Shown piece by piece: positions 1-33,652 of a stretch of DNA of 64,000 nucleotides. The position numbers were made by a program, and so were the translations under genes. How positions within the stretch are numbered: position 1 is the stretch's first letter; each line of letters starts with the position of its first letter. Source of the stretch: Paenibacillus herberti (GTDB lineage Bacteria; Bacillota; Bacilli; Paenibacillales; Paenibacillaceae); assembly GCF_002233675.1 (NCBI RefSeq), contig NZ_NMUQ01000002.1:1216121-1280120 (forward strand), given 5' to 3'. The notes under the pieces are model-generated. The model worked only from the letters and a program-made list of their open reading frames with translations. It was not told where the DNA came from and did no database searches.

Positions 1-3000
1 CCTAAATATGTGTCGATCATGGACGCGAGCGCAGACCGGACAACGGTAACGGATACGACTTATGTGCATAACGGATATGACAGCTGGTATATAAAAAATG
101 GTGGTTTTGGAGCTACCCCTCCGATGGTTGAAACCCCCGATTATAATCATGTTCAAATTTCCAATGGAGGCAACACGTTAACCTTCTATGGCTATACCTC
201 ACCTGCTTATAAGGATTTCATGCTGACGCAAGGAAGCCCTTCAGGCAAAAAAATCATCACCTTCGACATGGATGAATCCAAAGTGGATTACCACAGCATG
301 GAAGGCGGCGGTTTTCTATTTAATACGGAGATCGACGGCAACGGAAAATTAAGCGGTTATTCGATTTTATATGTTCAAGGTGCTGTCAAAGTATATAAAA
401 TCGATGGTGTGGACGCAACCGCACTACATAATGAGACGGGAAGAGCTTTGAGTTCCATGCCAGGCGTTACCCAAATCGGAAATTTCTCGAAAGGGGCATC
501 CACTCACCACAGCATTAAAGTCGTCGCAACGGATACGACGTTGAACATGTGGGATAATGGTGACCAAATCATTCGAAATTTAACCCTTCCGGATGTTTAC
601 GGGAATGAATTCGGTCCGATCGTTAGCCATATAGGCCATGGCTGCGGGATTATCTCGATTTTTGCATTTGATAATATGAAGTTGTTTTCGACTTCGAGCA
701 AGCCATTGGATGTAGCCGCGGATAAGATCAATTGGGGAACGTCGCCGCTGCGTTATATCGTGAACATTAACGATGACCCTCGCGGAGAATTAGACGGGGG
801 AACGAATCAATCCAAACTGACGGAGTCGTTCGATAGGAGCGGCGCACAATATATTGGAGTAACCAGCGCCACGTATGAGAGCATCGACCAAACGTTTATC
901 GACGGCATTATAAACGGCGGTCAACATGTTAATTCCAATAAGTCCAGCACGGATATCATTCAAGAAATTGCTGATCGAATCGCGAACCAACTCATTTCAG
1001 ATTATAAAGATGGTATTCTAGCCATTGAAAAGGCAGAGGACAAAACCGATATCCGGTATCAGCCCGGAGAAACGAAAAACTCGGTGAAAAACAATCTTAC
1101 GCTACAACAAGACGATGGCGTAACCACCGTCTGGTCCTCTGACCAGCCGTCGGTCATCGCGCCAGATGGAACCGTGAAGAGGCCGGTAATCGCTCAATCG
1201 GGAACTTATGTAACCTTGACGGCAACTATCACCAAAGACGGACTTACAAGCGAGAAGACATTTACGGTTTATGTGAAAGCAGCTGACCCAGCTCCTTTAG
1301 GCGATTTGTCGGCTGTTGCAGGCAATCAGCAATTGACATTAAAGTTCCCTGCTTTAACAGGGGCAACGAGTATCGTTGTTGAACAATCTACTGATGGAAC
1401 AAACTTTACTCCGGTTAGCCCGGTGGAGACGCTGGATGCTGCTTCAACAAGTGCAACCTTAACCGGATTAACGAACGGCGAAACCTACTATTTCCGACTG
1501 AACGTCGGATCGGGTCCATATGCGGGTCTGTCCAATGTGGTCGATGCCTCGCCTTCAAAATCGTTGACCACTTTGTCGGCCGTTGCAGGCAGTCAGCAAG
1601 TGACATTGAATTTCCCTGCTCTAACGGGGGCAACGAGCATCGTTGTTGAACAGTCTACCGATGGAACCAACTTTACTCCGGTTAGCCCGGTGGAGATGCT
1701 GGATGCTGCTTCAACAAGTGCAACCTTAACCGGATTAACGAACGGCGAAACCTACTCTTTCCGATTGAACGTGGGATCAGGTTCATATGCAGGCGTGTCC
1801 AATGTGGTCGATGCCTCGCCTTCGGAACCAATCACCACTTTGTCGGCCGTTGCAGGCATTGAACAAGTGACATTGAATTTCCCTGTTTTGACGGGGGCAA
1901 CGAGCATTATTGTAGAACAATCTACGGATGGAACTACCTTTAGACCGGTTAGCCCATTGGAGACGCTGGATGCTGCTGCAATAAGTGCAACGTTAGCGGG
2001 TTTATCGAGTAACGAAACCTACTATTTCCGATTAAACGTGGAATCGGGTCCATATGCAGGCATGTCCAATGTAGTTACTATCAAACCAAACGCGCCTGCT
2101 GAAGTCCCACCTGTAGAAGTTCCACCTACAGGAAATACGGATGTTGTACAACAGCCTGCACCTACAATGAAACCGGAAGTCATTGTTTCGGACCAAGCGA
2201 ACGGTGGCAAGGTCGTTCAGGAGATCATTACGAAGCTCGTCGGAAACAACTTGAAAGTGTCAGGGGAAATAATATCAGCAAACGGCCAAAAGCTGAATCT
2301 GCCGAATATTGTGATGAACCAAGACGGCAGCTTTACGCTTCCGCAACTCCCATCTGGCGAATATACCTTGTCGCTGAACGTGTTTGCGCCTAACGGAGAG
2401 AAGCTGGCGGGTCCTGCCGGTAAGCTAACTGTTGATAGCAATGGAAAGGCAAAGTTAGCGGTTGATCTGGTCGATCCATATGGTACTATTCTCGATAAGG
2501 TGACAAATCAGCCTGTTGCAGGAGTAAATATGCAATTGTATTGGGCGGATACGGAACTGAATCGTTCCAAAGGCAGAGTGCCGGGAACGCTTGTTCAACT
2601 TCCTGAGCTTCCGGATTTTGCGCCGAACAAAAATCACAACCCACAGATTAGCTCAACCAGCGGTCAATACGGCTGGATGGTTTACGCAGATGGTGATTAC
2701 TACTTTACAGGTGAGAAGAATGGTTACATTATTTTTGACAGTCGTGCCGATAAGCGTGAAGAGCGTTTTGGGGATGACAGCTTTATTAAAGACGGCCTCA
2801 TCCATGTCGGAGACACGATCGTGGAATTCAGTTTCTCTACAAAGCCGAAAGTGAAGGCAACAGGCGATCATAGTGCTTACATGGTTGGATATCCAGATGA
2901 TACTTTCCAAGCGGATCGAGGAATTATCCGGTCGGAGATGGCTGCAATCTTGTCCCGTTTGTATACATCTGCAGCGGACTCTAACAAAGTATCGTATTCG

Positions 3001-3462
3001 GATGTAAGTGCAAAACATTGGGCTGCGAATGCGATCACGACTGCATCCAACAATGAATGGATGGTCGGATTCAGCGACAAGACTTTCAAGCCGAAGAAAC
3101 AAATCACTCGGGCGGAATTCGCGCAGATCCTCATGAATGTGTACCAATGGGACACCGCACAGGGGAGCACATATACGGACGTAGCTGGACACTGGGCTGA
3201 AAAAGCCATCGCAACGGCCCAGAAGCAAGGTATGCTGTTGGATTTTACGGAGAAGAACTTCAATCCGAATCAATCCATTACGAGATTAGAGGTCATTAGA
3301 ATCCTTAATGGGCTGCTGGATCGTAAACCTTGGGATATCAAGGTTGGACCGGAATGGACCGATATTCCGGAAGATCACAGCAATTATGTAGACATCATGG
3401 AAGCTTCGATTCCGCATTCGTTCGAGCAGCTTGAAACTGGAATTGAAAATTGGAAGGAATAG
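1..3462 (+). CDS. SLH-domain cell-surface protein with Fn3-like repeats (5' partial)
   Basis: The frame is open to the window edge, so the gene starts upstream; GTG at 10 is only the first internal candidate. In order the protein has a LamG/concanavalin-like region (about residues 70-225), an Ig-like module of the atrophied bacterial type (about 350-430), three tandem Fn3-like repeats of 89 residues, a linker rich in Pro and Val, a carboxypeptidase-regulatory-like region, and three SLH motifs (about 945-1110). SLH motifs usually bind pyruvylated secondary cell-wall polymer, so the protein is expected on the envelope, perhaps as a surface enzyme or adhesin whose catalytic part lies upstream. 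No catalytic domain is visible in the part seen. A terminator follows at 3547. Confidence 0.85.
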   Translation, partial: PKYVSIMDASADRTTVTDTTYVHNGYDSWYIKNGGFGATPPMVETPDYNHVQISNGGNTLTFYGYTSPAYKDFMLTQGSPSGKKIITFDMDESKVDYHSMEGGGFLFNTEIDGNGKLSGYSILYVQGAVKVYKIDGVDATALHNETGRALSSMPGVTQIGNFSKGASTHHSIKVVATDTTLNMWDNGDQIIRNLTLPDVYGNEFGPIVSHIGHGCGIISIFAFDNMKLFSTSSKPLDVAADKINWGTSPLRYIVNINDDPRGELDGGTNQSKLTESFDRSGAQYIGVTSATYESIDQTFIDGIINGGQHVNSNKSSTDIIQEIADRIANQLISDYKDGILAIEKAEDKTDIRYQPGETKNSVKNNLTLQQDDGVTTVWSSDQPSVIAPDGTVKRPVIAQSGTYVTLTATITKDGLTSEKTFTVYVKAADPAPLGDLSAVAGNQQLTLKFPALTGATSIVVEQSTDGTNFTPVSPVETLDAASTSATLTGLTNGETYYFRLNVGSGPYAGLSNVVDASPSKSLTTLSAVAGSQQVTLNFPALTGATSIVVEQSTDGTNFTPVSPVEMLDAASTSATLTGLTNGETYSFRLNVGSGSYAGVSNVVDASPSEPITTLSAVAGIEQVTLNFPVLTGATSIIVEQSTDGTTFRPVSPLETLDAAAISATLAGLSSNETYYFRLNVESGPYAGMSNVVTIKPNAPAEVPPVEVPPTGNTDVVQQPAPTMKPEVIVSDQANGGKVVQEIITKLVGNNLKVSGEIISANGQKLNLPNIVMNQDGSFTLPQLPSGEYTLSLNVFAPNGEKLAGPAGKLTVDSNGKAKLAVDLVDPYGTILDKVTNQPVAGVNMQLYWADTELNRSKGRVPGTLVQLPELPDFAPNKNHNPQISSTSGQYGWMVYADGDYYFTGEKNGYIIFDSRADKREERFGDDSFIKDGLIHVGDTIVEFSFSTKPKVKATGDHSAYMVGYPDDTFQADRGIIRSEMAAILSRLYTSAADSNKVSYSDVSAKHWAANAITTASNNEWMVGFSDKTFKPKKQITRAEFAQILMNVYQWDTAQGSTYTDVAGHWAEKAIATAQKQGMLLDFTEKNFNPNQSITRLEVIRILNGLLDRKPWDIKVGPEWTDIPEDHSNYVDIMEASIPHSFEQLETGIENWKE
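1306..2085 (+). repeat. Three tandem 267-bp repeats encoding Fn3-like modules
   Basis: Units begin near 1306, 1573 and 1840, a period of exactly 267 bp or 89 codons. Units 1 and 2 are very similar even at synonymous positions; unit 3 is more diverged. Recent duplication or gene conversion is likely, and copy number may vary between strains. Confidence 0.85.
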
Positions 3463-25172: not shown

Positions 25173-25938
25173 GATTAATTCCTCCATATGGACTTGAGAT
25201 CGGCGATTCTAATGGAGACGAACTCATCCTCGGCGGTCGTATGAAATGGCGACGACTTACACCAGCCTGTAAAGCGAGCTGTTCTACCGTCAAAGGCTCC
25301 GCAATATGCAAATGGATGAAATCCAGGATGGCGGAAAAATTCAAACGCCCCGGCTTGAGAGGGCAATTCCTGGTCTTTGACTCTGTGGAATCCTCTTGCT
25401 TCAAAAGGCGTGCGATCCGCACCGTCAACTGCATCAGGCCAGCGATCAAGCTCGCTTGAAAGCCCGGTGGCTGTTCATGATATTCCCGGTGCATTTGATG
25501 AAACAGCCCTCCAAGCTCCATATTTCGATCAACGAGTGTCAGATGGGACCCGGGAGCGCCTTTAAACAAGGAGAAAGAATCACCATCATCGCCGAAGCGC
25601 GATAGCCATTGTTGAAGCTCGTCCACAAATTCTGACCGGATGCACAGATTATAAACAAGGAGTTTATTTTTGTTGGACGGGCCGCTTGGGCGGAAAAGAT
25701 GTGAAGTGCCGACTGGCAAAATGTACAGACAGCCTTTGTTTGTTTTTGCGACTCGGTCGCCTACATAGTGAAAACCTTCGCCCGACATGACGTATGCCAT
25801 CTCCAGAAATTCATGGTCATGCTCTCTGAGTTCGAAGCCTTCCTCCCAGCAATTCATATACAGGGGGAAACCGCTATGAAAATGCTCTGAGTCGACATAG
25901 TGATCGATCCGCGTTTTAGGGGTGGCACTATTCACCAT
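25096..25938 (-). pseudogene. AraC-family regulator with truncated DNA-binding domain
   Basis: From ATG 25938 the protein has an intact cupin sensor (FELREHDHEFLEMAYVMSGEG) and the first helix-turn-helix as far as LALQAGVSRRHFIR. The sequence then becomes unrelated, and the frame runs over the start of the next AraC gene. The second helix-turn-helix, needed for operator recognition, is missing. A deletion between two adjacent AraC genes is the simplest explanation. It is divergent from the GH78 gene, which it may once have controlled. Confidence 0.7.
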
Positions 25939-26020
25939 GCTTTTTGTCACTTCTCTCGGCTTTGTCTTCTGTCCGCCTATTATACAATCAGCTTTAGAAG
26001 ACGGAAAGGGGCCAGCTAAT

Positions 26021-28120
26021 ATGGAACAGAGTGTACAGAAACGAGCAGCAACCTGGATTTGGTATCCCGGTGATTTTGAGATCCGCCTGCTTGAAAAAAT
26101 ATCTGTAAAACGTCGGGCGCGCGACGTTATGTATCCAACCACATGGCGGATCGATCGTCAATATTCAAACATCAAATTCCGCTATACGTACGATTTGCCG
26201 CAGGAGGAACAGATTGCGATCGCCGCGGAAGGTGTGTTCTCTCTTTATCTTGATGGACGAGACAATAATCGCTCGGGCGACTCCACGATAACACTCCCAG
26301 CAGGACGCCACGAAATAATCGTGAGTGTATTTAATGATGTCGAGGCTCCGGCCCTGTTCATCGATGGGGTAAACATCAGGTCTGATTCGGCCTGGGAAGT
26401 GACCTCCTATCAGAACGATTGGCTAACCCCCGGTTCCTGGACATTCGATTCAGCGGATAATCGGCCATCTCAGTTTCGTCTGGCCGTTACTCCGCAGGAG
26501 CCTGCTTTACAGGAAGTTCGGGACGGTCACATTTTGCTGGACTTTGGCCGGGAAACGTTCGGTTTTCTGCGTTTTCACGGGCTCGCGGGGTCGGGAGATG
26601 TGACCGTATTTTATGGCGAGTCCTTAGCTGAAGCGCTATCCCCGGATGATTGCATGCTTCTGGATCGCTTCTCTGTGGCTAAGGCGGCTGAGCGGGCAGA
26701 GGCTGACATTTATACGCTGGATGAAGGCAAGGCATTCCGCTATGTATGGATTCACGCTGATCCTGGCGTTCGCTGGGAGCATGTTTCGATGCTGTATGAA
26801 TATGTGCCGCTCGATTATCGCAGCTCTTTCCAATGCTCGGACCCGAAGCTGAATGAAATTTACGAAATGTCGCTTTATACGCTTCATTTGAACACGAGGG
26901 AGTTTTTCATCGACGGGATTAAGCGGGATCGTTGGGTTTGGTCGGGTGACGCGTACCAGTCGTTTCTGATGAACTACTACAGCTTTTTCGATTTGGATGT
27001 GACGCGTCGGACGCTTGTTGCTCTGAGGGGCAAGGACCCCCTCACGATGCATTTCAATACAATCCTGGATTACTCCTTTTATTGGTTCATATCCCTCTAT
27101 GATTATTATCTGTATAGCGGCGATTTTGCATTCATTCGGCAGTATTATGACCGCGCTGTGAGCTTGATGGAGTTCTGTTTGAAACAGCGGAATTCAGAGG
27201 GGCTGGTGGAAGGCAGGCCGCAGGATTGGGTGTTCGTGGACTGGGCGGACCTGACCAATACAGGCGCCGTCAGCACCGAACAGATTTTGCTCGTTAGAAG
27301 CTTGGAAGCGATGAGCCTATTCGCCTCGCTGCTTGATGATGAAAAGGCCGCTGCCTCTTATAAAAAGCTGGCGGAAGAGATCAAAGCAACAACGATGGGG
27401 CTGTTCTGGGATGAGGAGAGGGGCGGCTTGCTGCATCACCGGGTTGACGGCGAGACAAAGCCGATGCTGACGAAACATGCGAGCATGTTCGCGATGACTT
27501 TTGGTTATCTTTCGCAGGAACAGCGGGAGAGCGTCATCCACAACGTAATGTTGAACCCTGATGTGCCGCGCATACGGACGCCGTATATGCGATTCCATGA
27601 GCTGGCAGTGCTTTGCGAAAGCGGGGAGCATGACTATGTTCGCAGGGAGATGCTCTCTTACTGGGGCGGTATGATTGAGCTTGGCGCGACCTCGTTCTGG
27701 GAAGAGTATGACCCGTCGCTGGCAGACGACGCACATTACGGTATGTATGGGATGCCATTTGGCAAAAGCCTGTGCCATGCCTGGGGGGCTAGCCCGATTT
27801 ATTTGATCGGCAAGTATTTCCTCGGCGTCACCCCGGCTGCGCCTGGCTACGAGTTATACCGAATCACGCCGAATCTCGGCGGGCTAACACATATGAACGG
27901 CACGGTGCCGATTGGTGAAGGTCAGGTCACTCTAGAGATGGATTCCTCCTCAATTCGTGTGGAAAGCACATCGGGGACTGGTATTCTGACGTTTACGAGC
28001 GAAGAGCCACCGGCGTGCAGCGAAGGCGAAGTCCGGAATATCGGCGGGAGCTCTTATGAGGTCACGATCGAAGCGGGGAAGAAGTATCGGGTTGATTATC
28101 GGGCGGTTCTTAGGGGATAA
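26021..28120 (+). CDS. GH78-family alpha-L-rhamnosidase
   Basis: About 699 residues with an N-terminal beta-sandwich (about 1-260), an (alpha/alpha)6 catalytic barrel (about 270-620; IDGIKRDRWVWSGDAYQS holds the general-acid region) and a C-terminal beta domain. It removes terminal L-rhamnose from plant glycosides or pectin side chains. I start at ATG 26021 with GAAAGGGG upstream; the open frame begins earlier at 25922 but that part overlaps the divergent AraC start and looks non-coding. No signal peptide, so it acts on imported glycosides. Confidence 0.85.
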   Translation: MEQSVQKRAATWIWYPGDFEIRLLEKISVKRRARDVMYPTTWRIDRQYSNIKFRYTYDLPQEEQIAIAAEGVFSLYLDGRDNNRSGDSTITLPAGRHEIIVSVFNDVEAPALFIDGVNIRSDSAWEVTSYQNDWLTPGSWTFDSADNRPSQFRLAVTPQEPALQEVRDGHILLDFGRETFGFLRFHGLAGSGDVTVFYGESLAEALSPDDCMLLDRFSVAKAAERAEADIYTLDEGKAFRYVWIHADPGVRWEHVSMLYEYVPLDYRSSFQCSDPKLNEIYEMSLYTLHLNTREFFIDGIKRDRWVWSGDAYQSFLMNYYSFFDLDVTRRTLVALRGKDPLTMHFNTILDYSFYWFISLYDYYLYSGDFAFIRQYYDRAVSLMEFCLKQRNSEGLVEGRPQDWVFVDWADLTNTGAVSTEQILLVRSLEAMSLFASLLDDEKAAASYKKLAEEIKATTMGLFWDEERGGLLHHRVDGETKPMLTKHASMFAMTFGYLSQEQRESVIHNVMLNPDVPRIRTPYMRFHELAVLCESGEHDYVRREMLSYWGGMIELGATSFWEEYDPSLADDAHYGMYGMPFGKSLCHAWGASPIYLIGKYFLGVTPAAPGYELYRITPNLGGLTHMNGTVPIGEGQVTLEMDSSSIRVESTSGTGILTFTSEEPPACSEGEVRNIGGSSYEVTIEAGKKYRVDYRAVLRG

Positions 28121-28156
28121 TTTCAAAATTGGAAATTACTTATTTTAACTATTTCA

Positions 28157-28185
28157 TTGTGGTAAAGGCCAATTAGTCGTATAAT
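28157..28185 (+). promoter_or_regulatory. Promoter of the repeat-containing RNA
   Basis: TTGTGG (28157-28162), a 17-bp spacer and a perfect TATAAT (28180-28185). Predicted transcript start near 28192. Confidence 0.7.
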
Positions 28186-28240
28186 AGGTATTGTAAATTA
28201 AAGGATCCCTCATAGGGATCGCCGAACAGCGGCGCTTCGG

Positions 28241-28281
28241 TACGCCCCGGGGGCGTCTCACAAATTCCTTGTATACCCAAC
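28241..28281 (+). repeat. 41-nt repeat element, copy 1
   Basis: 40 of 41 positions match copy 2 at 28377. Starts with a GC hairpin and ends in TTGTATACCCAAC. Weaker similarity extends some 15 nt on each side. Confidence 0.9.
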
Positions 28282-28376
28282 TTTCTTGCCGTGAACGAAT
28301 TTATTCTTTGCTTTACAGATATACTAAATACATGTCATCTGTTTAGTGCAGATGAGCTGTGCACAGGCGGGCTCAG

Positions 28377-28417
28377 TACGCTCCGGGGGCGTCTCACAAA
28401 TTCCTTGTATACCCAAC
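28377..28417 (+). repeat. 41-nt repeat element, copy 2
   Basis: Matches copy 1 except C to T at its sixth base, which keeps a G-U pair in the hairpin. Confidence 0.9.
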
Positions 28418-28443
28418 CTTTTCCGCCTAATTACAAGACCGAG

Positions 28444-28474
28444 GGCTCTGATGTTTATCATCAGAGCCTTTTTA
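28444..28474 (+). terminator. Terminator between the RNA and the nuclease-like gene
   Basis: A perfect 10-bp stem, GGCTCTGATG with CATCAGAGCC, around TTTAT, followed by TTTTT. It ends 23 bp before the next ATG, so most transcripts should stop here and only read-through would express the gene. Confidence 0.9.
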
Positions 28475-28496
28475 TTGCCAAGGAGCAACCTTAAAA

Positions 28497-29231
28497 ATGT
28501 CTAGATTAGACCTCCCCGGATTGCTTGCTTTGACCTCTAAAGCGAATATAGCACAGATCGAATTGAGTACACTTCAAGAACTATACTACAAGTGTTTGTA
28601 TCCATACACCTTTGTATTCAAGCTAGACAACGGTGACGAGTTGAAATTGAAATTCGATCGCGATAAGTTCTGTCACTTGATTGGTCTAGACAAAGTACCT
28701 AAAGCCTTACTAGCTTCCAAATCAAGAGGGTGGACTTCCCGACGTGTCAGCAACTATAAGGGTGTACGCGGATGGGATGGTATTTTGGATGGGTCCATTA
28801 ATATTGCTCACATTAATGCCTTGGCGGCTCGAGTCAGAAACGGTTTAGGGGAATCAGAGCGGAAACTTGTTAATTTCTACTATCTTCCTACACTATTAAA
28901 GGTCGGGAATTTGGTGATACGTTATCTAAATCCTCAACCAGGATCCAGGGTTACAAGTGAGTTATTCATTTATGACACGCATGACAACTTGTATTTACAA
29001 TTAGGACTTCGGAAAGACTCGAATAATTACGATAAGTGGTATTATCCGGAGACATTCATTATAAACACTGCTAACCCAGGCAACTCAAATCCTAGGGCTG
29101 CTGGGAATCCCGTTCATCGTGTGGTTAAAAGAACTGTATTACAACGATTTAATTATGGTTTATATAGACCTAAATCACGAATTCTACGCGTTCCCAACTC
29201 TAAGCGGAAAAACAGACGAGTAAAGAATTAA
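28497..29231 (+). CDS. PBECR4-like putative RNase toxin
   Basis: A 244-residue basic protein. Residues 25-65 (YPYTFVFKLDNGDELKLKF, then FCHLIGLDK) and the later HINALAARVRNG and ERKLVNFYYLP segments resemble the PBECR4 group, proposed nucleases of the barnase/EndoU/colicin-E5-D/RelE superfamily. The N terminus is helical and the last 20 residues are strongly basic. AAGGAG precedes the ATG; own terminator at 29249. Placed directly after a repeat RNA and terminator, it is a good toxin candidate. No antitoxin protein gene is next to it. The family call rests on recall of motifs, not a search. Confidence 0.55.
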   Translation: MSRLDLPGLLALTSKANIAQIELSTLQELYYKCLYPYTFVFKLDNGDELKLKFDRDKFCHLIGLDKVPKALLASKSRGWTSRRVSNYKGVRGWDGILDGSINIAHINALAARVRNGLGESERKLVNFYYLPTLLKVGNLVIRYLNPQPGSRVTSELFIYDTHDNLYLQLGLRKDSNNYDKWYYPETFIINTANPGNSNPRAAGNPVHRVVKRTVLQRFNYGLYRPKSRILRVPNSKRKNRRVKN

Positions 29232-29248
29232 ATACATATAAAATAGCT

Positions 29249-29276
29249 AAAGACGAGGCTCTTTCCTCGTCTTTTT
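29249..29276 (+). terminator. Terminator after the nuclease-like gene
   Basis: AAAGACGAGG pairs with CCTCGTCTTT around CTCTTT, then Ts. Confidence 0.85.
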
Positions 29277-29316
29277 GTGTTGATTATTCAAGGCGTGGGA
29301 GTATACTTCCCTTTAA

Positions 29317-29745
29317 TCATTTCGAAGTAATAGTTGCTACCTTTTTAATATTATCCCAATCTACAGTTCCTCCTACAGCCTCAGCGACAACCCGAGTATT
29401 TACTAAGAACTTATTTTCTAATGAATCATGGAACGGAGATTGAGTTAGCGGGACTATTTTTTCGTTTATAGTGACTGTTGAAACACCCATGGTCAAAACG
29501 ATTTTAATATCTGCACCTTCAGCTATGACGATTTTCTTTTTTGGATACCATTGCACCGTCATTCCAAGGTTTTCAAATAACTCCCGGAATGGAATCATTG
29601 TATTACCGTTCACGACGAGTGCAGTATCCTTTAATGTTGTTCCATCAATAACCACTGTTCCAACTACACGTTTTTGCTCACCGTACGCCAATGATCCAGG
29701 GATGAGAAGGAGAGCGAGAATAACGATTAACCATATTTTTTTCAT
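29317..29745 (-). CDS. Secreted copper-amine-oxidase-like stalk-domain protein
   Basis: A 142-residue exported protein with a signal peptide (about 1-21, ending SLAYG) and one copper amine oxidase N-terminal-like domain (PF07833 type): VVNGNTMIPFRELFENLGMTVQW and VNTRVVAEAVGGTVDWD. Such stalk domains are common, often multicopy, in Paenibacillus and serve as wall-associated spacers, with no enzyme activity of their own. AGGGGGAA precedes the start. Confidence 0.8.
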   Translation of the reverse strand: MKKIWLIVILALLLIPGSLAYGEQKRVVGTVVIDGTTLKDTALVVNGNTMIPFRELFENLGMTVQWYPKKKIVIAEGADIKIVLTMGVSTVTINEKIVPLTQSPFHDSLENKFLVNTRVVAEAVGGTVDWDNIKKVATITSK

Positions 29746-30179
29746 TTTTCATTCCCCCTAATCTAATATTGCATAAAATTCGTATTACCATATATCCAGA
29801 AATTAACACAAATAGGGTTGCGTTAAACACTACGGTTAAAGCGCTCCTAAGTGGTGGTAAAACGGGGGAAAACCTTCCTTTTGGCCGTATCAGACAGCTT
29901 ATTGTCCCATTCGATTGTTCTAAGAAAACGGAAGTAATTGTAAGATGAGTATGGGGTAATCCGAGTTCTTTATTCAATAATATACGGTTGACTTTACATA
30001 CATAAACCACGATTCAGAGCACTGCAATGAATTAAATTCACATCCAGAATTGAATCCCCAACCCTGCACACATCAGACCTCACCAACTGGACAGGAATAG
30101 AACAATTATAGTCCTTTTTTAGCTTTACCACGGTACATAAATATGAGTTAATGAGTTGGCGAAGAAGCGGAGGTAGATC
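29746..30179. other. Intergenic stretch, no gene seen
   Basis: It must hold the divergent promoters of the stalk-domain gene and the ABC exporter. No frame with a ribosome binding site, no repeat and no clear operator was seen. GGAGG for the exporter lies at 30169-30173. Confidence 0.5.
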
Positions 30180-32938: not shown

Positions 32939-32972
32939 GAAACCGACACCGGGTTGAGGTGTCGGTTTTTTA
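32939..32972 (+). terminator. Terminator after DUF1854, shared with the converging Doc gene
   Basis: AAACCGACACC pairs with GGTGTCGGTTT around GGGTTGA, then TTTT. Confidence 0.88.
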
Positions 32973-33377
32973 TGTTTCGGTTATGGTCGCACAATGGTTT
33001 TGAATGATAAGAACCAGTTCTTGAAAATTGTACTTGTGGATCACCATATCCACCGTAAAGTCCTCGGCTTGTTTTGCATCCATTTTGAAATGCCATCCAT
33101 TCAAACGCAGGAAAATGACAAGAGCTGTAAAAGCAGTCCGTTTGTTTGCATTAAAAAAAGAGTGATTTTGGCCAATTGATTCAAATAATGCGGCTGCTTT
33201 TTCAAAAATGGTAGGATAAGCATCGTTTCCAAAGGCTGAGGACTGCGCTCGAACAACAGCGGATTCAAGTAAACCGGGCTCTTTTACTCCCACATGTTCA
33301 CCTGGACTGTAGCGCTGGATCATAGCGAGATTGATTGCTATCACTTCCTGTGTCGTTAAAAATCGGATCTGTTTCAT
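32970..33377 (-). CDS. doc: Doc-family toxin, second module
   Basis: A 135-residue Doc/Fic protein with HSFFNANKR at residues 72-80, the canonical Doc motif. Its N-terminal region (PGLLESAVVRAQSSAFG) aligns with the first Doc of the window, but the two differ at many positions, so they are not a recent copy. It overlaps the antitoxin by 4 bp (ATGA). Expected to phosphorylate EF-Tu. Confidence 0.87.
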   Translation of the reverse strand: MKQIRFLTTQEVIAINLAMIQRYSPGEHVGVKEPGLLESAVVRAQSSAFGNDAYPTIFEKAAALFESIGQNHSFFNANKRTAFTALVIFLRLNGWHFKMDAKQAEDFTVDMVIHKYNFQELVLIIQNHCATITET

Positions 33378-33637
33378 CTATCCTTAAGACCTCGTAGCGT
33401 ATCGTCGTACTCACCTATAACATCTACAAGAGAGTCCATAAAATCATCGCCTATTCCATTAGGTAGCGTTACCTTTACTGATTTTTTGATGATAATTTCT
33501 CCGCTAGCCTGATTTACATCTATACTAACCGTGTCGCCTTGCTGGAGTCCAAGTTGTTTCAAAGCATCAGTCATGGTCAATCCCAAGCTATTTCCGAACT
33601 TCGTCACCTTTCGTTCCATATCAATCATCCTATTCAT
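33374..33637 (-). CDS. MazE/AbrB-type antitoxin, second module
   Basis: About 87 residues: a MazE-like DNA-binding domain (KVTKFGNSLGLTMTDALKQLG) and an acidic C-terminal tail (GEYDDTLRGLKDR). Start at ATG 33637 because AAGGAG lies 11 bp upstream; an in-frame GTG at 33649 would overlap that site. It should repress its own promoter at the palindrome 33653-33680. Confidence 0.8.
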   Translation of the reverse strand: MNRMIDMERKVTKFGNSLGLTMTDALKQLGLQQGDTVSIDVNQASGEIIIKKSVKVTLPNGIGDDFMDSLVDVIGEYDDTLRGLKDR

Positions 33638-33652
33638 TAGGTAAGTCACTCC

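Follow-up and report, generated by a model that had tools for sequence, protein, structure and literature searches.

A pseudoknotted RNA conserved upstream of PBECR4-family genes probably restrains a predicted toxin and has copies in phages

As summarized in Table 1, the ORF of a PBECR4-family protein in Paenibacillus herberti was found to follow a 12-bp terminator, two RNA units, and, furthest upstream, a promoter-like site. The whole stretch of DNA analyzed, 64,000 nucleotides of contig NZ_NMUQ01000002.1, is called the window here. Comparison with relatives suggests that a conserved knotted RNA probably keeps the predicted toxin in check, and the presence of toxin-less copies of the RNA in phages suggests an unrecognized family of RNA-controlled anti-virus toxins. 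I consider it likely that the locus is a type III-like RNA antitoxin/toxin module, and a probable anti-phage module, in which the toxin belongs to a different family and the RNA to several classes. The initial annotation of this DNA had described a repeat RNA, a terminator, and a nuclease gene as a possible type III-like system. What it observed was confirmed. Its interpretation was borne out for the RNA units, the terminator, the PBECR4 protein, and the type III-like order, while tandem copies turned out not to be obligatory.

Table 1. Positions of the features of the PBECR4 locus (window coordinates)
Feature	Position	Strand	Basis
Promoter-like site TTGTGG-17-TATAAT	28157..28185	+	-10 element 6/6, -35 element 3/6
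5′ hairpin of unit 1 (GATCCC/GGGATC)	28204..28220	+	Sequence; stem in hairpin listing (minus-strand row)
RNA unit 1	28227..28293	+	Model R2, E 1.2e-10 (unit in the model's seed); covariation
5′ hairpin of unit 2	28335..28355	+	Sequence; stem in hairpin listing (minus-strand row)
RNA unit 2	28364..28431	+	Model R2, E 1.1e-11 (unit in the seed); repeat; covariation
Rho-independent terminator at the RNA/gene boundary	28442..28473	+	12-bp stem, T5
Ribosome-binding site AAGGAG	28480..28485	+	Sequence
PBECR4-family protein, 244 aa, predicted RNase toxin	28497..29231	+	PF18813, E 1.2e-13; H60 and T186 as predicted active site
Bidirectional terminator 3′ of the gene	29249..29274	.	Terminator scan

The two copies of the repeat (28237-28284 and 28373-28420) have a period of 136 nt and are 94% identical over 48 nt. 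A single base (C/T) separates the 41-nt element at 28241 from that at 28377. It changes a C-G pair to a U-G pair in the inner stem, so that the pairing is kept, as had been noticed at first. Each element makes up the core of an RNA unit, about 67 nt long, with its own preceding hairpin, and hairpins of like form can be seen by eye before the units of relatives. In unit 1, the outer stem P1 pairs 28229-28233 with 28288-28292, and the inner stem P2 pairs 28242-28246 with 28252-28256 around the loop 28247-28251, with a bulged U28241 and a further pair 28240-28257. In unit 2, P1 is formed by AGGCGG (28365-28370) and CCGCCT (28423-28428). The terminator had been described as a perfect 10-bp hairpin. 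The terminator is real, but its stem (28442-28470) has 12 bp with one G-U pair and overlaps the T5 stretch at 28469-28473. A simple terminator scan did not report it; its sequence, CTCTGATG...CATCAGAG, was found again in many relatives. Similarly, the description of the promoter as near-consensus is right for the -10 element (TATAAT, 28180-28185) and generous for the -35 element, TTGTGG (28157-28162), which lies 17 nt upstream. A simple promoter scan that requires 4/6 at -35 did not report the site, and its score is equalled by 10% of mononucleotide shuffles of the window's sequence. Over 32 loci, the mean of the best promoter score is 12.4, compared with 10.7 in mononucleotide shuffles.

The product of the ORF scores 52.3 bits against PF18813 (PBECR4), above the cut-off of 27, in agreement with the initial assignment, and all 24 homologues in alignment A9 match the same family. 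In the 24 rows of A9, H60 is invariant, and every row has a Thr or Ser in the T186 column, the latter judged by eye. Thus, the pair of a His and a C-terminal Thr/Ser, described for PBECR domains in general in the part of the source consulted (PMC5512222), is present in A9. A profile search against solved structures gave no match at E up to 10, so that the fold and the RNase activity are predictions which rest on Pfam; at the level of sequence, the early remark that the protein is not ToxN-like also stands. The window protein had no match in NCBIfam or PADLOC, where two members of A9 gave weak, unrelated matches, and only one weak match in PHROGs, to a family of unknown function. It was absent from phages, where a relative gave one weak match (E 0.03), and no near relatives were found in viral contigs. 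The literature search found no paper on PBECR4 and none on this system; subscription papers were outside its scope, and novelty is not proven.

A type II toxin-antitoxin system was also considered for this ORF and is unlikely, as, by eye, none of the adjacent ORFs of at least 70 aa resembles an antitoxin partner. Some 4 kb from the module, the window has a Fic/DOC gene (PF02661, E 1.5e-14; 32970-33649, minus strand) with a MazE-like ORF, below the Pfam cut-off, just upstream, which may be a second, type II-like pair.

Is this arrangement common? Homologues were found in 19 of 295 genomes of the family, 19 of 296 of the order, and 4 of 398 of the phylum, as well as at eight loci in genome contigs and in eight plasmid records, with overlap between these sets. 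Relatives on plasmids and on chromosomes of the Paenibacillus group and Bacillaceae keep the order and have one to three units. As read from the sequences, there are two units in the window, L003, L005, L007-L014, L020, L047, and L052, three in L051, and one in L002, L004, L006, L015, L030, L031, and L053. The order of promoter, RNA, terminator, and gene proposed at the outset recurs in relatives. A terminator lies within 150 nt upstream of the start codon at 30 of 32 loci, compared with 9 of 87 control ORFs from the window and the loci, and the two loci missed by the scan (L037 and L053) have terminator-like hairpins by eye. This count leaves out the fragments L016, L019, L039, and L040 and the duplicates L017, L020, and L056, and it keeps the near-identical L007-L009/L052 and L010-L014; many of the counted rows are thus near-identical and not independent. 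With the terminator removed, 41 upstream regions have a mean z of -1.8 relative to shuffles, 32 of them below -1 and three above 0.

The distribution is patchy even among close relatives, with PBECR4 in one of eight genomes of the genus. The congener G007 has no match to window positions 25233-29868, and in the congener G005 a gap of 378 nt, not 2150, separates the match that ends at window position 27944 from the one that starts at 30094. The module thus looks to have been acquired or lost as a block, and the plasmid homologues would fit a mobile life. Two plasmids deserve a remark. The 7.9-kb plasmid of L057 (NC_015392.1), labelled Salmonella Dublin, carries PBECR4, MobV, and rep; its origin looks Gram-positive, and an Rfam Bacillus-plasmid RNA (1121-1174, minus strand) lies on the opposite strand, further upstream than the RNA slot. 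In the Brevibacillus plasmid pAZOBL1 (L055), an RNA ligase family gene (2281-3123, plus strand) lies directly 3′ of PBECR4.

The 284-nt RNA of the window is more stable than all of 200 dinucleotide shuffles (z -5.2). Its minimum-energy fold joins one unit to the other, and the structure of each unit is drawn from the comparison with relatives. In a sequence-only alignment of 23 units (A4, with L006 and L040 left out), both-sided changes were found in all six pairs of P1, and 93.5% of the cells are paired, compared with 75.1% after shuffling and 29-63% when the strands are slid. In a second alignment of 16 units (A5), 9 of the 12 pairs of P1 and P2 together have changed on both sides, and the covariation score was reached by 0 of 500 shuffles. 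The count of standard pair types, on the other hand, is no higher than in shuffles (441/500 for A4 and 303/500 for A5). RNAalifold on the sequence-only alignment predicted P1 alone; P2 and the pseudoknot come from separate tests. For the pseudoknot, each hairpin loop was paired with its own linker downstream and then with swapped linkers, which gave 317 vs 260 (sd 10; 0/2000) and, for 18 representatives, 203 vs 166 (sd 7.5; 0/5000), figures that are not strict probabilities because the loops were cut by eye and the units are related. Clear pseudoknots are UCCGCA/UGCGGA in L010 and CCGUG/CACGG in L005, and the pair CCGGU/ACCGG of the phage phi18-2 corresponds to CUGGU/ACCAG in L097. In the window itself, the pseudoknot is a weak one (GGG/CCC). 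Judged from these comparisons, the window unit is a real structured RNA with an outer stem, an inner stem, and a pseudoknot, and the covariation and the recurrence rule out a chance repeat. No Rfam family matched the window RNA at the gathering score, with chance-level matches only at a relaxed threshold, and the RNA slot of 17 relatives had no Rfam match.

A covariance model, R2, which the initial annotation had proposed as a check, was built on A5. At E below 1e-3, it found units in 20 of the 39 sources examined, the held-out L010-L014 among them. R2 missed the other 19 (L006, which was weak, L016, L017-L019, L021, L035, L037-L039, L042, L043, L051, and L053-L058). At the missed full-length homologues, the RNA was judged by eye from the terminator, the promoter, and the folding.

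In the 295 family genomes, R2 had 32 matches in 18 genomes, 27 of them at PBECR4 loci and five elsewhere. Three of the five are solitary RNAs in G054, G242, and G247, genomes without PBECR4 by the homologue search, and two of these have a terminator by eye. The remaining two (G241 and contig 7 of G190) lie in phage regions before a phrog_6883 gene; the neighbours are a helicase, a helicase loader, and a primase in G241 and a DNA polymerase in G190. The RNA is also present where the PBECR4 gene is truncated or missing (L038, L068, L070, L227, and L240). Both L038 and L040 have the RNA ahead of a truncated gene, with three of six P1 pairs broken in L040 (= L092), and L070 has an altered pseudoknot strand. 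In Cytobacillus oceanisediminis (L047), a degenerate extra unit (3338-3403, plus strand; R2 E 0.00097) with a terminator lies downstream of PBECR4.

The phage copies extend beyond the two phage regions of G241 and G190. The exact 32-nt element of the window is found in no viral contig. A 27-nt pattern with two ambiguous positions hit two phage contigs, a broader pattern seven additional ones, and blastn gave a match in the Bacillus phage phi18-2 (E 3e-4) and a weak one (E 0.1) in a B. paralicheniformis plasmid that has a phage terminase gene. The R2 match is strong for the G241 copy (3.5e-11), whose core is identical to that of host units, moderate for L090, L094, and L095 (5e-6 to 8e-5), and weak for the phi18-2-type units (E 0.007 to 0.2); the unit of L118 was recognized by eye only. 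Among phage loci with relatives of phrog_6883, an R2 unit occupies the slot at 3 of 27; two of the three are the contigs of the 27-nt pattern, and the third agrees with the G190 copy in sequence. Over 1065 nt, L118 shares 86% identity with L120, yet by eye the two have changed on each side of P2 and of the pseudoknot without loss of pairing. In the genome G190, a PBECR4 system coexists with a phage copy whose subtype looks similar by eye. The position of the unit is fixed in two phage groups, before phrog_6883 in one and after a tRNA-like stretch in the other, the Bacillus phages having the unit in this other context without PBECR4 behind. It is proposed, by analogy with the pseudo-ToxI of phage phiTE, that such toxin-less units may serve as decoy antitoxins.

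The tRNA-like stretch (GCGGTGGCGGAATAGGTAGACGC...) precedes the phi18-2-type units in L097-L104; ARAGORN predicted no tRNA in 11 phage loci, this stretch included. In L118-L144, the stretch of about 300 nt before position 1501, 5′ of phrog_6883, is strongly divergent between phages by eye. This region resembles structured RNA in several phages and may be a hot spot for counter-defence RNAs.

Before more distant PBECR4 genes, this place is taken by other RNAs. A class-wide search with PF18813 gave 21 matches in 18 of 378 genomes, five of the 21 in ORFs over 1000 aa. The stand-alone genes L158, L164, and L165 of genus g60 have the Rfam RNA Bacilli-1 directly upstream (E 1.5e-18 to 1.1e-10). Across 147 genomes of this genus, Bacilli-1 has 19 matches in 18 genomes and PF18813 has matches in 58. 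A PBECR4 match begins 124-132 nt downstream of Bacilli-1 on the same strand in 12 of the 19 cases, with internal stop codons in two of the 12 (G1171 and G1199). Six of the other seven are solitary and have a terminator, adjoining genes that resemble argH or argG by eye (L166, L169-L172, and L174, from several species), and one is ambiguous. Distant PBECR4 genes also occur in viral contigs behind Bacilli-1: the core pattern of this RNA was found in 32 viral contigs, many of them near-identical or from one genome, and PBECR4 follows in 29; L227 and L240 are without it, and L226 has too little sequence left. Another Rfam RNA, drum, lies directly upstream of PBECR4 in L196, L198, and L199, and its only three matches in 22 chosen PBECR4-bearing genomes are these three. 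The window RNA reaches the gathering score of neither model. Both Bacilli-1 and drum have been published as motifs of unknown function. A terminator was found at 9 of 11 more distant stand-alone PBECR4 genes (L162 being doubtful) and at three of seven further ones, not at the other four (L208 and L210-L212). In L158, which has Bacilli-1 on the 5′ side, a skipping-rope RNA (RF02924, E 1.4e-11; 2011-2091, plus strand) lies directly 3′ of PBECR4. Counting the RNA of the window, that of L018/L021/L057 (by eye), Bacilli-1, and drum, the slot before this protein family is taken by at least four RNA classes.

The gene order, the repeated pseudoknotted RNA, the terminator, the RNAs without a gene, the patchy distribution, and the phage copies are together best fitted by an RNA antitoxin. 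In the proposed mechanism, one promoter would drive a structured RNA of one to three units, in each of which the outer stem would close an inner hairpin whose loop forms the pseudoknot with the downstream linker. The terminator would stop most transcripts, and read-through would yield a small amount of PBECR4 protein. I infer that the RNA units bind and silence the RNase directly, and that phage infection or loss of the element would end the RNA supply. The freed RNase would then cut cellular RNA, perhaps tRNA, and growth would halt. Phages with toxin-less units might use these as decoy antitoxins. A wider reading, toward which I lean only slightly, is that the stand-alone PBECR4 genes and the four or more RNA classes make up one large superfamily of RNA-antitoxin defence, in which Bacilli-1 and drum would be antitoxins and phages would have acquired the RNAs as decoys on repeated occasions, the inner stem and the pseudoknot changing together in an arms race.

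Could the RNA instead be a leader of the gene that it precedes? A riboswitch, too, can consist of tandem structured domains with a terminator and a gene behind them, and the terminator sequence is conserved. On this reading, tandem aptamers and the terminator would control the transcription of PBECR4, as a riboswitch or a protein-binding attenuator, with no role in trans. The existence of units with no PBECR4 behind them (the solitary chromosomal RNAs, those before phrog_6883, those of Bacillus phages, and the solitary Bacilli-1) and the presence of several different RNA classes before one protein family make this improbable. It is very improbable, in my estimation, that the nuclease uses the RNA as a working cofactor, guide, or sensor, the two forming an RNP effector that is activated through the RNA. 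The concerted change of P2 and the pseudoknot between L118 and L120 would fit a change of specificity, and solitary RNAs could act on other targets; however, no variable guide-like segment was noticed in an informal look, the RNAs outlast truncation of the gene, and the gene order equals that of type III systems.

The phage units call for a separate judgment. They may be elements with another role in the phage, such as processing, replication, or structures of a tRNA cluster, which resemble the host units by descent and counter no toxin, and their fixed place in two phage groups agrees with this. Yet the core of the G241 copy equals that of host units, and in G190 a PBECR4 system and a phage unit of like subtype (by eye) are found together. 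Moreover, presence at 3 of 27 phrog_6883 loci, by the model, means that the unit is not a required phage element. I regard another phage role as rather unlikely. If the preferred reading, an RNA antitoxin and its phage decoys, is true, a new toxin family and several classes of RNA antitoxin would stand beside the three type III families described in the part of PMC5086642 consulted, two Rfam RNA families (Bacilli-1 and drum) would gain a role, and the stand-alone PBECR4 proteins would gain a testable function. The natural RNA decoys of phages would be ready reagents for tests of RNA-based counter-defence.

How do these loci compare with known systems? According to the sections of PMC5086642 consulted, which define type III toxin-antitoxin systems and the families ToxIN, CptIN, and TenpIN, the likeness lies in a repeated pseudoknotted RNA upstream, a Rho-independent terminator, a gene for a predicted RNase toxin, a distribution over plasmids and chromosomes, and phage-borne copies of the RNA. 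Type III systems have a single promoter ahead of RNA and toxin, a place taken here by the promoter-like site with its perfect -10 element, and their toxin processes the RNA and is neutralized by it. The terminator between RNA and toxin is found here well above the controls. The pseudoknot is established by comparison, within the limits of the swap test given above, and is weak in the window copies. Tandem repeats are present in the window and many relatives, and seven loci have one unit. The toxin differs, being PBECR4 by Pfam with a predicted BECR fold and no sequence match to solved chains, so that homology to ToxN would have to be structural, which is possible. The RNA also differs in its unit spacing of 86-166 nt, its outer stem and separate 5′ hairpin, the frequent occurrence of one unit alone, and the existence of several classes. 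The module works like a type III system; membership is not claimed, because tandem repeats are not universal, homology to ToxN is a possibility, and neutralization is a proposal.

The PBECR domains of polyvalent proteins (PMC5512222, whose consulted text does not name PBECR4) are likewise predicted BECR RNases with a His and a C-terminal Thr/Ser. As far as that text goes, they are mostly parts of large phage or conjugative proteins, whereas the genes here are stand-alone, of about 200-250 codons, and lie behind an RNA. Bacilli-1 (RF02931) and drum (RF02958) occupy the same slot upstream of PBECR4 genes and are RNA classes separate from the window RNA. The closest parallel for the phage copies is the pseudo-ToxI of phage phiTE, reported in the portion of PMC3475682 consulted to suppress abortive infection mediated by ToxIN. 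It too is an intergenic, phage-borne, antitoxin-like RNA without a toxin, while the copies described here are complete units, occur in several phage groups, and are proposed decoys.
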